Of a stretch of DNA of 64,000 nt, positions 42,810-48,857 are shown piece after piece. Where the stretch lies: contig NZ_CP094288.1 of the NCBI RefSeq assembly GCF_022693705.1, forward strand, positions 1-64,000, given 5' to 3'. The stretch comes from Infirmifilum sp. NZ (GTDB taxonomy: Archaea > Thermoproteota > Thermoprotei > Thermofilales > Thermofilaceae). A model generated the notes under the pieces. It searched no databases. It saw nothing but the letters and a program-made list of their open reading frames with translations, and was not told the DNA's origin. Numbering within the stretch: position 1 is the first letter of the stretch; each line of letters starts with the position of its first letter. The position numbers and the translations under genes were made by a program.

Positions 42810-43163
42810 ATGGGCCACGTTTCTGTGAGGGCGAGGATATGCTCGCTGGACAAGTCGAAGTGCGCGGACGTTGAAGCGCTAGTGGACACTGGGGCGACGC
42901 TGACCGCGATCCCGAGGAGCCTAGCTGAGACGCTGGGCATCGAAGCCGTCAGGAGGGACGTCGTCGAGACAGGGGCTGGGCTCGTGGAGGTTGAGCGTGG
43001 CGCCGCCGTGGTCTCGGTGGAGGGCAGGGAAACGGTCACAGAGGTGTGGGTAAGCGATATCATCGGAAGGGTGCTCATCGGGGTTGCAACGCTGGAGATG
43101 CTCGGGCTCCGCGTCGACCCTAGGACGGGGAAGCTTGAGCCTTCGCCCCTGCTGCTCTACTAG
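42810..43163 (+). CDS. Retropepsin-like aspartic protease domain
   Basis: The 117-residue protein has the single-chain clan AA signature: 'VEALVDTGATLTAIP' (active-site DTGA), then a beta-rich body ending with 'VLIGVATLEMLGLRVDPRTGKL', the second motif seen in retropepsins (I-G-x-x-x-L-x-x-L-x-L). Such proteins homodimerise into proteases. ATG 42810 follows the TATA box by about 30 bp. No signal peptide. Small aspartic proteases of this kind are common in Thermoproteales, function unknown. Confidence 0.82.
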   Translation: MGHVSVRARICSLDKSKCADVEALVDTGATLTAIPRSLAETLGIEAVRRDVVETGAGLVEVERGAAVVSVEGRETVTEVWVSDIIGRVLIGVATLEMLGLRVDPRTGKLEPSPLLLY

Positions 43164-43978: not shown

Positions 43979-44348
43979 CCAACACCCACATAATTGCACT
44001 ATCCTAACTAATAAGCGCTTCGAATCCGAGGAGCCTTAAATAGTCATCACTCACTCTGCGAAGCCCTCACCAGCTAGATACAAACCCTTGTATCCAAGGC
44101 GTCGCAGTAGCTGGCCGCTCTAGAGCTAAGCCGAAAACTTGGCGAGCCGCAGGGTAAAGCCACACTGACGCTTTTGCGCTTCCCGATTTATCTTGACTCT
44201 GGAAGCATAGTAAGTCTCTATGTAGTTTCACATAGATAATAAAAAGCGCTATTAGCATGTTTAACAGAGACGAAAATAACTTTTAAAGGCAGACCAAAAA
44301 CAAGGGCAACAGCAAGATTTATAAGCAAGCCCGCCAAATAACCCTTGT
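43979..44348. other. AT-rich intergenic region with hairpin
   Basis: No gene seen. Contains an inverted repeat GATACAA-ACCC-TTGTATC (44077-44094), the leftward TATA for the small membrane gene and the rightward TATA (TTTATAAG, 44316-44323) for the pilin gene. Some stretches are strongly AT-rich (about 44220-44320), suggestive of a promoter-dense leader. Confidence 0.45.
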
Positions 44349-44810
44349 ATGGCGAAAAGACAGGCAATAAGCCCCGTAATCGCAACAGTTATCATAGTCG
44401 CCGTCACCATCGCCGTCGCAATCGCGGTAGCCTTCTGGATGACGGGCATCATCGGCATCTTCACTGGCTTCGAGCAGCTCACGATCGAGACGATTTACGC
44501 GCAACCCGAAGCAGGAGGCTGGACTGTGACTCTCATTGTCTCTAACAAGGGGACGTCCCCCACATCGATCACCGACATCTTCATAAACGGGGTGAAAGCC
44601 GGAGGTACAGGATGTCCCGTTAAAGATAACGCAAGCATAATCGCGGGGACTCCGCTGCCGATAGACCCGGGAAGCAAGGCGACGATACTCCTGACGATAC
44701 CGCCTGGTAGCAGTTGCGGCGCTACGAAGTTCGTCGCTGGTCAGAGCATCGAGGTGAAGCTTCACAGCTCGGGCGGCAAGGATTACCCGAAGCTTGTCGT
44801 GCTGCCCTAA
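44349..44810 (+). CDS. Archaeal type IV pilin-like protein (class III signal)
   Basis: The 153-residue protein opens 'MAKRQAISPVIATVIIVAVTIAVAIAVAFWM', the class III signal (KRQ-AISPVIA) and pilin helix recognised by PibD prepilin peptidase. The secreted domain (from 'GFEQLTIETIYAQ' on) is beta-rich, with two Cys that may bond. Cleavage would leave AISPVIA at the N-terminus. A TATA box (TTTATAAGC, about 44316-44323) about 28 bp upstream gives a short-leader mRNA; the stop is followed by a T-run (44820-44826). The C-terminal half has a paralogue in the decayed gene at 44882-45886. Confidence 0.88.
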   Translation: MAKRQAISPVIATVIIVAVTIAVAIAVAFWMTGIIGIFTGFEQLTIETIYAQPEAGGWTVTLIVSNKGTSPTSITDIFINGVKAGGTGCPVKDNASIIAGTPLPIDPGSKATILLTIPPGSSCGATKFVAGQSIEVKLHSSGGKDYPKLVVLP

Positions 44811-44811
44811 A

Positions 44812-44826
44812 GGAAAAATTTTTTTG
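44812..44826 (+). terminator. Oligo-T terminator after pilin gene
   Basis: AAAAA followed by a run of seven to eight T directly after the TAA stop is typical of archaeal factor-independent termination. Confidence 0.55.
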
Positions 44827-44846
44827 TCTGTTGGCGCAGTGCTTAT

Positions 44847-44870
44847 AAAGTTATTTTTCTCGATAACTTT
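44847..44870 (+). promoter_or_regulatory. Inverted repeat at SPFH-gene promoter
   Basis: AAAGTTAT (44847-44854) and ATAACTTT (44863-44870) form a perfect inverted repeat with an 8-nt gap. It overlaps the TATA box (TTATAAAG) and ends near the transcription start about 12 bp before the ATG at 44882, as expected for a repressor site or a hairpin. Confidence 0.55.
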
Positions 44871-44881
44871 CTTGAAGGTGT

Positions 44882-45886
44882 ATGCGTAAGACTGTTGGGA
44901 TCGGCTTGCTGGCTCTCGCAGTCATTTCAGCGGTTGCGCTGTTTTCCTCGGTGGTTGTGCTGGGGCCCGGAGTGGTCGCGGTGGTCTACGACCCGCTTAC
45001 GGGCTTTATCAGCGGTCCACACGTGGGGCCCTCGGCGTTCCTCAAGGCTCCGTGGCAGGGCGTGGTTAGGGGCTCCTGCGGTGTGGAGGTCGTGGAGCTT
45101 TCGGGTAGGCCCGACTCTTCTCGGGGGCCGGTGGCGGCGCGCACGAGGGACGGCGTCGAGGTGTGGGTGGACTTGGCTCTCGCCTACAGCGTTGGACCCT
45201 CTGCGCTTCGGGGAGCTGGTGAGGAGCTACCCGGGGCTCGACTTCGCGGAGAAGGCGCTCGCACCCTACCTGGAGCAGGCGGCTCGGGAGGTGGTAGCGG
45301 GGTACACGGCTGAGGAGCTTTTCGCGGCCGGTAGCCGGGTTTCGGAGGAGATCAGGTAGGCGTTTCTGAGGAGAGTTCGGGCCGACGGTAGCCTCGCGGC
45401 CGTAGAGGTGAGGGACGTCAGGGTCGGGGAGATCAAGCTTCCCCGGAGGTCGAGCAGGCATTGCAGGAGAAGGTGGCGTCGTACCAGAGGATGCTCGCCG
45501 AGTACTACAGGAGGGTGGGGGAGGCGTTGGCTAGCGCCACACCGGGGTTCGAGCAGCTAGCCGTCGATACGGTCTACGCGCAGGCGGCGCCGGGGGGCTG
45601 GACTGTGACGGTGCAGGTCTCCAACAGGGGCTCGCTCCCCGCGCTGGTGACAGCCGTGAGGGTGAACGGGGTGGATGTCAGCGAGTGCAGGGACTCTGTG
45701 CGGGCGACCCCGAACGTTGCTGTGAACCCTCTCCCGGTTCTCCCAGGCGGCTCGGCGACGATACTGCTCTCAGTGTCCAGGTCCGGGAAGTGCGGTGCAA
45801 CGGTGTTCACCGCCGGCTCGAGCATCGAGGTAAGGCTACGCACGGCCTCGGGTGCGGAGTACGCGAAGCTCGTCGTCCTGCCCTGA
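44882..45886 (+). pseudogene. SPFH/prohibitin-like gene fused to pilin-like domain, decayed
   Basis: The frame from ATG 44882 encodes a membrane helix and a prohibitin-like domain ('VVLGPGVVAVVYDPLTGF', 'VRDGVEVWVDLALAYSV'). It is broken by a frameshift near 45195, an amber codon at 45357-45359 and a second frameshift near 45440, after which 'EVEQALQEKVASYQRMLAEYYRR' is a band-7 coiled coil. From 'GFEQLAVDTVYAQ' (about 45547) it is homologous to the secreted half of the pilin-like protein just upstream. So the intact gene was an SPFH protein with a pilin-like C-terminal domain, probably cell-surface scaffold. No longer translated as one piece. Chimera versus fusion artefact is open. Confidence 0.7.
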
Positions 45887-45906
45887 CCGCAGCGACTGAA
45901 GATCGA

Positions 45907-47802
45907 TCAGCCTGATTGAGCCGCCTGGGGCTTGCTGCGGCGCTGCCTTTGCTCCTCGAGGGCTTTCAGGGTGAAGGCGACGAGCTCTGCCGTCTCCCTT
46001 GCCCTCACCTCGGGTGTGGCTCCGAGGTGGCCGCTTCTCGTCTCGACTCGCAGGTACGCGGGGGCGCCGAGGTCTAGGAGCCTGGCGGTGAGCTTGAGGG
46101 CGTGGGATGGGTGGACGCGGTCGTCGGCGAGGCCCGTGTAGGCGAGGACGTAGGGGTAGTCGGCTGGCTTGAGGTTGTGGATGGGGGAGTAGGACTCGAG
46201 CACCCTCCTGTCCTCGGGGTCGTCGGGGTCGCCGTACTCGGTGGTCCAGAGCCTGCCGAGGTGGAGCCTGTGGTAGCGGAGCATGTCGGTGAGGGGGTAG
46301 CCGGCGAGGGCCACGTCGATGAGCTCGGGCCTCCTAGCCACCACCGCGGCGACTAGGAGCCCCCCGTTGCTCCTGCCTGTCGCGACGGTCATGTAGCCCC
46401 TGGCCCTGTAGTGCTCGAGGAAAGCCCCGAAGTCCTCGAACACCCTCACCTTGTTCCCGCGCATCCCGGCCCTGTGCCACTCCTCCCCGTACTCGAAGCC
46501 ACCCCTCAGGTTCGTCGAGACGAAGGTCGCGCCGGCCTCCAGGAGCATGACGGCCTCCGGCTGGAAGCGGGGCTTGACCGACAGCGCGAACCCCCCGTAG
46601 CCGTACACCACAGCCACCCCGCCGTCCCGGGCGGCCCTGCTCCTCACCTCGAAGCCGTGCACCCTCGTCCCGTCCCGCGAGGAGACCCACAGCTCCCTGA
46701 CCTCCAGCCCGAGGGGAAGCGAGGAGCCCTCGACCAGCCACGCGCCCCCCTGGTCTACGAGGTAGAGCTTGCTCGGCGTGTCGAAGGACTCGTACCTCGC
46801 CAGCGCCGCGCCGAAGCCCCTGGAGAGGATGGTGACGCTGCCCGGCCCCTCGCCGAGCCCCACCTCCCCAGCCGGCTCTCCCTCCGGGCTGTAGAGCTCG
46901 AGCCTGTTCGCGCCGTCGACGAGCCTCACCGCTAGGAGCCTCCCGCCGACGGGGGCGGCGTCCTCGATGGGGTGGGCCTCGGCCCTCAAGATTACCCTGG
47001 CCCCCCGGCCAACCTCGACGACCTGGCCCAGGCTGTGCTCGTAGCTAAGCACGTAGCTGCGGCCCCCGAGCCTGCCCACCGGGTAGGCCTTGGAGCCTCC
47101 GGGGTCGTAGAGCAGCCTGAAGCCGCCGCCTGCGAGCTCGTACACGAGGGACCTCGACCAGCCGTGAAAAGCTACGGCGTACACCGACTCCCCGTCGCCC
47201 GCGAGGTGGACCAGCCAGTTCGTGCCCAGGCCCTCGCCGAAGACCAGCTCCTCCCCGGCCCCGAGCTCCGCCTCGAACACCCTGCTCGCCGGCGCCTCGA
47301 CGCCGTCCGGAGCGGTGCCGGACCTGTAGGTGCGGACGTACAGGAACCTCTCCCTCGTGAGCCAGACGGGGGGCGAGACGTAGCCCTCTGGCCCCTCGAT
47401 ACGCTCGCCGGTCTCGGTGTCGACGATGAGCGTGCGCGCGTAGTCCGAGCCGGCCCTCGTGTGCAGGGCGGCCAGCATCCTCCCGTCCCTGCTCGCGCTG
47501 ATCGATGCAACGACGGCGTCGCCGCCGAGCTCCCGCGCGTCCAGCACCGTCTGCGGCTCCGCGTCGCCGGTGCTGTACCTCTTGACGGTGAAGGTGCCAC
47601 GCTCCCTGGTCAGGGCGTAGAGGCCCCCCTCGAAGAGCGCCGCGTCGACCACGTAGGGCAGGCTGTGGAGCTCCAGCGCGCGCTGGTAGAGGGCATCGGC
47701 GAGGGGCGAGACGAACTCCCTGAACCTCCGGTTCTGCTCCTCGATGAAGGCCTTCACGCGGGGGTCCTCGAGGTCCTCGAGCCAGTCGTAGCCGCTAGGC
47801 AC
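45907..47802 (-). CDS. Prolyl oligopeptidase family serine peptidase (S9A)
   Basis: A 631-residue cytosolic peptidase with an N-terminal 'YDWLEDLEDPRVKAFIEEQNRRF' helix, a beta-propeller of about 350 residues and a C-terminal alpha/beta hydrolase. Triad: Ser in 'GRSNGGLLVAAV', Asp in 'YTGLADDRVHPSHA' and His in 'RSGHLGATPEV'. Cleaves peptides after proline, up to about 30 residues. Length and domain order are standard. ATG-type start at 47802 in a GC-rich region. No operon partner. Confidence 0.93.
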   Translation of the reverse strand: MPSGYDWLEDLEDPRVKAFIEEQNRRFREFVSPLADALYQRALELHSLPYVVDAALFEGGLYALTRERGTFTVKRYSTGDAEPQTVLDARELGGDAVVASISASRDGRMLAALHTRAGSDYARTLIVDTETGERIEGPEGYVSPPVWLTRERFLYVRTYRSGTAPDGVEAPASRVFEAELGAGEELVFGEGLGTNWLVHLAGDGESVYAVAFHGWSRSLVYELAGGGFRLLYDPGGSKAYPVGRLGGRSYVLSYEHSLGQVVEVGRGARVILRAEAHPIEDAAPVGGRLLAVRLVDGANRLELYSPEGEPAGEVGLGEGPGSVTILSRGFGAALARYESFDTPSKLYLVDQGGAWLVEGSSLPLGLEVRELWVSSRDGTRVHGFEVRSRAARDGGVAVVYGYGGFALSVKPRFQPEAVMLLEAGATFVSTNLRGGFEYGEEWHRAGMRGNKVRVFEDFGAFLEHYRARGYMTVATGRSNGGLLVAAVVARRPELIDVALAGYPLTDMLRYHRLHLGRLWTTEYGDPDDPEDRRVLESYSPIHNLKPADYPYVLAYTGLADDRVHPSHALKLTARLLDLGAPAYLRVETRSGHLGATPEVRARETAELVAFTLKALEEQRQRRSKPQAAQSG

Positions 47803-48005
47803 GGTCCATGCACGCGGCTTTCGAAAATAAAAGTTACGTCGGTGGAATCATCCCTAGCATACGGGTGAGGCGTTTTCCCAAGAGCCTTTGCAATCCAGCC
47901 GGGGACTGGGGTGCAAACTCCAACCGGCTTCCTCGCACGCGAACGGTCGGATGTGCACGAAACCCTTTTAAGCTGAGATGGAGTGGTTTGCCGCAGGGAG
48001 CGGGG

Positions 48006-48857
48006 TTGGAGTTGCTCAGCAAGGAGGAGAGGCTGAGGATCCTGAGGACCGTCGCCGAGGACGAGGAGTTCAGGCACGCGCTGATGGGCGCGCTTGGCTA
48101 CTCCGAGCTCCTCTCAAACCTCGAGAAGATATGGAAGGAAATCGAGGAGATCAAGCGCGAGCAGGCGAAGATCTGGCAGGAGATAAGGGCTATAAGGGAG
48201 GAGACCAAGAAGATCTGGCAGGAGATAGAGGGCATCAAGCGCGAGCAGGTCAAGATATGGGAGGAGATCAAAGCGCTCAGGGAGGAGGCGAACAAGCTCT
48301 GGAAGGAGGTCAGAGACCTCAAGGAGGGGCAGAGGAGGCTTGAGGAGGGCCTAGAGAAGGTGTGGGGTGCGCTCTTCCATGGTTTCTCGCAGCTCAGTAA
48401 GTTCGCCGGGTTGACGTTCGAGGAGTTCGTGAGGACGCTTCTGACGGACCTCTTCCGGAGGCACGGCGAGATCCCGGAGGGCGCTGAGCTGAAGCGGGCC
48501 GTGATTGACGGGGAAGAGGTGGACATTTTCCTCGAGGACCCGCTCATCGTCGGCGAGGTGACGGCGCGCGCGGCCGCCTGGATCGACTGCATACCTAATA
48601 GCACCATACTCGCCGTCAACGACGTCTCCTACGACCAGATACAAGCCCCCGTCGTTAGCAAGTGCTGGTTCAGCTCGAGGAGCTCCGTCGCCTTGACTTC
48701 CGCCTCTGTCCGGGCGGAGGGCAAGTACCTCATCTGCTACGCCCGTGCGATGTCGACCCAGTGGACGCAGTTCAGCCAGTTCGTCTTCTGGGTTAACGGC
48801 CAGGTAAGCTGCACAGGGTCCCACTCCGCTTGGGCTGCCATAGGTTGCGGTTGCTAA
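48006..48857 (+). CDS. Coiled-coil / DUF3782-like nuclease with unrelated C-terminus
   Basis: Residues about 1-35 are helical; 35-115 form a coiled coil made of imperfect repeats (IWxEIxxIKREQ, four to five copies), then 'AGLTFEEFVRTLLTDLFRR' and 'IDGEEVDIFLEDPLIVGEVTA' match the start of the PD-(D/E)XK core of DUF3782-type proteins. There the homology stops and about 90 residues of a different, Cys-rich, secreted-looking domain follow ('WIDCIPNSTIL', 'CYARAMSTQW', 'CTGSHSAWAAIGCGC'). TTG 48006 is chosen after TATA (CTTTTAAG, about 47964-47971). Chimeric; T-run after the stop. Confidence 0.65.
   Translation: MELLSKEERLRILRTVAEDEEFRHALMGALGYSELLSNLEKIWKEIEEIKREQAKIWQEIRAIREETKKIWQEIEGIKREQVKIWEEIKALREEANKLWKEVRDLKEGQRRLEEGLEKVWGALFHGFSQLSKFAGLTFEEFVRTLLTDLFRRHGEIPEGAELKRAVIDGEEVDIFLEDPLIVGEVTARAAAWIDCIPNSTILAVNDVSYDQIQAPVVSKCWFSSRSSVALTSASVRAEGKYLICYARAMSTQWTQFSQFVFWVNGQVSCTGSHSAWAAIGCGC

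Follow-up and report, generated by a model that had tools for sequence, protein, structure and literature searches.

A probable SPFH-pilin pseudogene next to a variable type IV pilin gene in Infirmifilum sp. NZ

The DNA analyzed here (the window) is the first 64,000 nucleotides (nts) of the single-contig 1.83-Mb genome of Infirmifilum sp. NZ (NZ_CP094288.1); the genes of the locus lie on its forward strand. At 44349 to 44810 is an intact open reading frame (ORF) of 153 amino acids (aa), pilin A, which a signal/helix model and the predicted fold identify as an archaeal type IV pilin. Pilin A starts with a class III signal peptide and hydrophobic helix (MAKRQAISPVIATVIIVAVTIAVAIAVAFW) and continues with an Ig-like beta domain. 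The N-terminal part was recognized by NCBIfam TIGR02537, the model for archaellin and type IV pilin N termini, at 25.4 bits (cutoff, 20); Pfam Pilin_N scored 18.8, under its cutoff of 25.2. The C-terminal Ig-like domain was recognized by its predicted fold and by its match to a solved structure. The AlphaFold model has a pLDDT of 82, is based on an alignment of three sequences only, with the beta domain as its confident part, and consists of a helix at residues 9 to 37 followed by a beta sandwich. The closest fold in the PDB is 8fk7, the type IV pilus of Pyrobaculum calidifontis (E = 4e-7). The genome has four matches above the cutoff to PF00437, the candidate assembly ATPase, of which two are strong (E about 1e-36); none is linked to the pilin A locus.

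The next gene starts at 44882, 72 bp past the end of pilin A, and encodes a broken SPFH (Band_7) protein. An earlier note on this DNA had placed the gene 700 bp downstream; that distance does not apply to the gene itself but is close to that of its last domain, domain B, which lies about 735 bp downstream. A possible TATA box (CTTATAAAG; 44843 to 44852, forward strand), found by inspection of the sequence about 35 bp upstream of where the SPFH gene starts, is retained in a conspecific metagenome-assembled genome (MAG), Thermofilum sp. NZ13 (L025; NDWX01000008.1). The SPFH homology falls into four parts. The first (44882 to 45193) comprises the membrane anchor and the beginning of the Band_7 domain, and the second (45195 to 45359), which is in a different frame, ends at the TAG at 45357 to 45359. 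Both matched Pfam Band_7 below the cutoff (E = 0.0046 and 0.0019, respectively), and the second was also placed by alignment. The third part (AFLRRVRADGSLAAVEVRDVRVGEIK; 45360 to 45437) was recognized by its alignment to intact SPFH proteins and extends to a second frame change; the fourth (SPEVEQALQEKVASYQRMLAEYYRRVGEALASATP; 45440 to 45544), also recognized by alignment to SPFH proteins, is the last SPFH-derived stretch and is in frame with the pilin domain that adjoins it. The gene does carry the two frameshifts and the amber codon that the earlier note reported: a frame change near 45194, the TAG, and a frame change near 45435 to 45440. The two frame changes compensate for each other, and consequently the first and last parts are in one frame.

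Assignment to the SPFH/Band_7 family is based on the two subthreshold Pfam matches, on relatives in 18 genomes (best E = 7e-18), and on the continuity of the alignment; the first part is about 27 to 47% identical to the SPFH proteins of relatives. The weak Pfam matches to both halves and the clear matches to relatives indicate a membrane anchor followed by an SPFH domain. According to the alignment, the C-terminal coiled coil, or oligomerization tail, is absent, and domain B is in its place.

Domain B (45545 to 45883; 113 aa, with the stop codon at 45884 to 45886) is a duplicated pilin ectodomain, identified by homology to pilin A and by its AlphaFold model. That the ectodomain of pilin A, from GFEQL on, recurs as the C-terminal domain of the SPFH gene had been claimed previously and is well founded: the local alignment of pilin A with domain B scored 281, whereas the highest score among 500 shuffles was 50. 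The alignment extends from GFEQL to the last residue, and both sequences end in KLVVLP. Identity is 49% in amino acids over 114 aligned positions and 61% in nucleotides in the codon alignment; about half of the residues differ, and the previous estimate of about one-third was too low. The earlier note had suggested structure prediction, which gave both domains the same fold, with a type IV pilin as the closest solved structure; the domain B model, which also has a pLDDT of 82, a three-sequence alignment, and the beta domain as its confident part, again had 8fk7 as its top PDB match (E = 7e-7).

The junction between the two homologies is abrupt. SPFH homology extends to RRVGEALASAT and is followed at once, in frame, by pilin homology starting with GFEQL, which is the boundary between the helix and the beta domain of the pilin. 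No residues of the pilin helix are retained in the alignment; with GFEQL coming right after SPFH-derived sequence, domain B has neither a signal peptide nor a helix of its own. It does retain 10 of the 11 columns that are invariant among the other 13 members of the family, and its identity to pilin A is concentrated in conserved columns (25 of 33 versus 31 of 80; Fisher's P = 0.0004). Both observations indicate that most of the divergence of domain B built up under constraint.

We searched for intact versions of the fusion in relatives. SPFH relatives were present in 18 related genomes in addition to that of the window, and a profile of the pilin domain had no match in any of them; in those with a complete frame, the C terminus consists of a coiled coil followed by a VVSPxGxxP-like tail. 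Among the pilin domains of 81 genomes of the class, none was in an SPFH frame. Nearly all were in ordinary pilin-length frames, and the exceptions appear to be stop-to-stop extensions or pilin-headed secreted proteins. In one genome (G017; L093, 2606 to 5406), two long frames, of 415 and 478 aa, contain a pilin-like domain and were considered as SPFH-pilin fusions. They were rejected, as they are pilin-headed secreted proteins without SPFH, with the pilin-type signal/helix and beta domain first and other domains after. In another genome, G005, a pilin gene is directly beside the same peptidase gene that follows the SPFH gene in the window, with no SPFH gene between them. A second short pilin-like gene adjoins a pilin gene in a further genome of the genus Thermofilum (G003; L006, 2182 to 2586).

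Thus, no intact ORF for an SPFH-pilin fusion was found: neither the window nor NZ13 has an unbroken copy, and the related genomes searched have none. We found no paper linking SPFH, archaea, and Thermofilum, and pilins go unmentioned in a survey of prokaryotic SPFH proteins. The earlier note had proposed a new band-7/pilin envelope architecture, to be given up if intact relatives had the two domains as separate genes. Every intact relative that we found has them as separate genes, which largely disposes of the proposal, and as a living system the architecture is unsupported. An unbroken fusion gene may persist in strains that have yet to be sampled.

The NZ13 locus has the same gene order as the window, namely, pilin A, the broken SPFH gene with domain B, and the peptidase gene; it differs in its lesions, in the loss of the junction, and in the allele type of the pilin A middle. 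In the NZ13 copy, codon 16 is TAA, 21 bp are missing at one place, and ∼0.5 kb is missing at another, with short microhomology at the ends of this larger deletion. The larger deletion takes in all three sites that are lesioned in the window. The SPFH-B junction is also deleted and is visible in one genome only. The presence of different lesions in the same gene of a conspecific supports the earlier claim that the gene is decaying and makes it unlikely that the decay is purely a fault of assembly. Between the two strains, the SPFH part has 11 nonsynonymous codon changes versus 15.7 expected if it were neutral (P = 0.02); domain B shows no departure from neutrality, with 8 nonsynonymous codons versus 9.9 expected (P = 0.20). 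These sequence comparisons suggest that the coding parts, SPFH and B, were constrained for much of their history, a constraint that says nothing about their having been one protein at the time.

The explanation that we favor, and consider likely, is that the SPFH-B gene is a lineage-specific chimeric pseudogene, in which a duplicated pilin ectodomain was joined to an SPFH gene that was later inactivated, and that pilin A is the working gene. In a Thermofilum ancestor, an SPFH (stomatin/prohibitin-type) gene would have had a type IV pilin gene on one side and a prolyl-oligopeptidase-like gene on the other. Its C-terminal coiled-coil third would have been replaced by the duplicated extracellular Ig-like domain of the pilin, joined at the helix/beta boundary. 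The product of the intact chimera would presumably have been a membrane-anchored SPFH protein with a pilin-type beta domain displayed outside the cell; having no pilin signal or helix, it would have been unable to enter a pilus. The chimera would then have been inactivated by different lesions in the two strains, while pilin A would have remained intact and working, its exposed middle undergoing exchange or diversification, probably driven by viruses or by other interactions at the cell surface. In this scheme, the chimera was probably functional once and is now a pseudogene. A fused SPFH-pilin protein may once have been made and used, and the in-frame joint at a domain boundary favors such a working fusion.

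Alternatively, the fusion could be an accident of decay, if a deletion removed the C-terminal third of the SPFH gene, the spacer, and the signal and helix of a second complete pilin gene, in which case the fused protein was never used. The ∼0.5-kb deletion in NZ13, with its microhomology, shows that deletions do occur at this locus, and in G005 a stand-alone pilin gene sits where domain B sits, beside the peptidase gene. In addition, with the junction present in one genome and the corresponding stretch deleted from NZ13, the junction may have arisen during decay and not in a working gene. However, a random deletion would seldom preserve the frame and also hit the domain boundary precisely, leaving nothing of the pilin helix or of the SPFH tail, and we consider this explanation unlikely.

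It is more improbable still that the SPFH-B gene is intact and owes its frameshifts and amber codon to mistakes in sequencing or assembly. Both frame changes are next to short runs of G or C and compensate for each other, and the affected stretch is missing from NZ13. But there are three lesions within about 250 bp, adjoining long open genes, and the NZ13 copy of the gene independently carries two deletions and a stop codon.

Pilin A itself varies between strains. Its central segment (44460 to 44760, roughly residues 45 to 133) is hypervariable, with 57% aa and 58% nt identity to the NZ13 allele, whereas the two ends are 98% and 100% identical in amino acids. Overall, pilin A is 71% identical to its NZ13 counterpart, compared to a median of 96% aa identity over 167 gene comparisons; the few genes that scored lower mostly resembled matches to paralogues. 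The flanks of the locus are about 97 to 99% identical in DNA between the window and NZ13. In 100-bp steps, the diverged tract extends from about 44.2 to 47.0 kb and has its minimum, 46%, in the middle of pilin A. This tract (44200 to 47000), centered on the pilin middle, resembles a hot spot of recombination at a surface gene that is diversifying. Third-position GC is 0.36 in the middle of the NZ13 allele and 0.42 in the G005 allele, versus 0.94 in the neighboring peptidase gene. In the domain tree, the NZ13 pilin A allele groups with that of G005, which is another species (93/90), and the window pilin A groups weakly with domain B (80/73).

From these sequences, of two strains, the simplest reading, which we offer as a lead, is that alleles of a diversifying surface pilin are imported by homologous recombination. 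A role for domain B as a silent cassette that passes sequence to pilin A through gene conversion, in the manner of the antigenic variation of gonococcal pilin, would fit the hypervariable middle and conserved ends of pilin A, the lack of the 5′ part of the gene in the downstream copy, and the grouping of the alleles (window pilin A with B, NZ13 pilin A with G005), but from the two strains compared it is very unlikely, given that nucleotide identity between pilin A and B is only 61%, that there is a single extra copy, and that codons for the same residue agree in 31 of 57 cases versus 25 expected from codon usage, no clearer an excess than that between the pilin A alleles of the two strains (29 versus 22) and thus no sign of a recent conversion tract. 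There were no tandem repeats around the locus, and no relative of pilin A was encoded in viral contigs.

Two other genes were noted in this region. A small protein encoded at 42810 to 43163 matches gag-type aspartyl protease families (Pfam PF13975 and PF13650, above the cutoff). At 47808 to 48857 is a coiled-coil protein whose C terminus, from about 48557, is unlike that of the NZ13 copy; at this point the NZ13 genome is longer by about 2.8 kb.

The type IV pili of Thermoproteales are reported to be extremely diverse and to evolve unusually fast (PMC4858521), and in Sulfolobus islandicus pilin deletions confer resistance to viruses (PMC7217056). By extension, viruses may be tied to pilin variation in Thermofilum, and pilin A provides a concrete locus at which to test for the diversification and virus link described in those studies. 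It is a candidate diversifying locus because its conspecific alleles differ as much as alleles of separate species. If the favored explanation is correct, the neighboring gene gives a rare view of domain shuffling at the archaeal surface, in which an unrelated gene for a membrane scaffold took up a pilin ectodomain that was later lost again. The broader picture, that an SPFH scaffold with a pilin-type Ig domain once worked at the cell surface, beside a pilin that exchanges its exposed part among strains and species through homologous recombination, is tentative, and we hold it to be somewhat less than probable.

Like the known type IV pilins of Thermoproteota (8fk7; Pyrobaculum arsenaticum, 6w8u; Sulfolobales, 6nav, 6w8x, and 8q30), pilin A has a class III signal/hydrophobic helix and an Ig-like domain. 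Domain B has the beta domain of these pilins but, unlike them, is joined to an SPFH remnant and has no signal or helix. The SPFH/Band_7 proteins of Thermofilales, including the intact paralogue that this genome has at 316943 (L045), align with the window gene throughout the anchor, the SPFH domain, and the start of the next helix; the window gene differs in being broken, in lacking the coiled-coil tail and the VVSPxGxxP-like ending, and in having a pilin domain last. As in the pilE/pilS antigenic variation of Neisseria, pilin A has conserved ends and a variable middle. Unlike in Neisseria, there is no evidence that the downstream copy donates sequence by conversion, and the variation resembles the import of alleles by homologous recombination.
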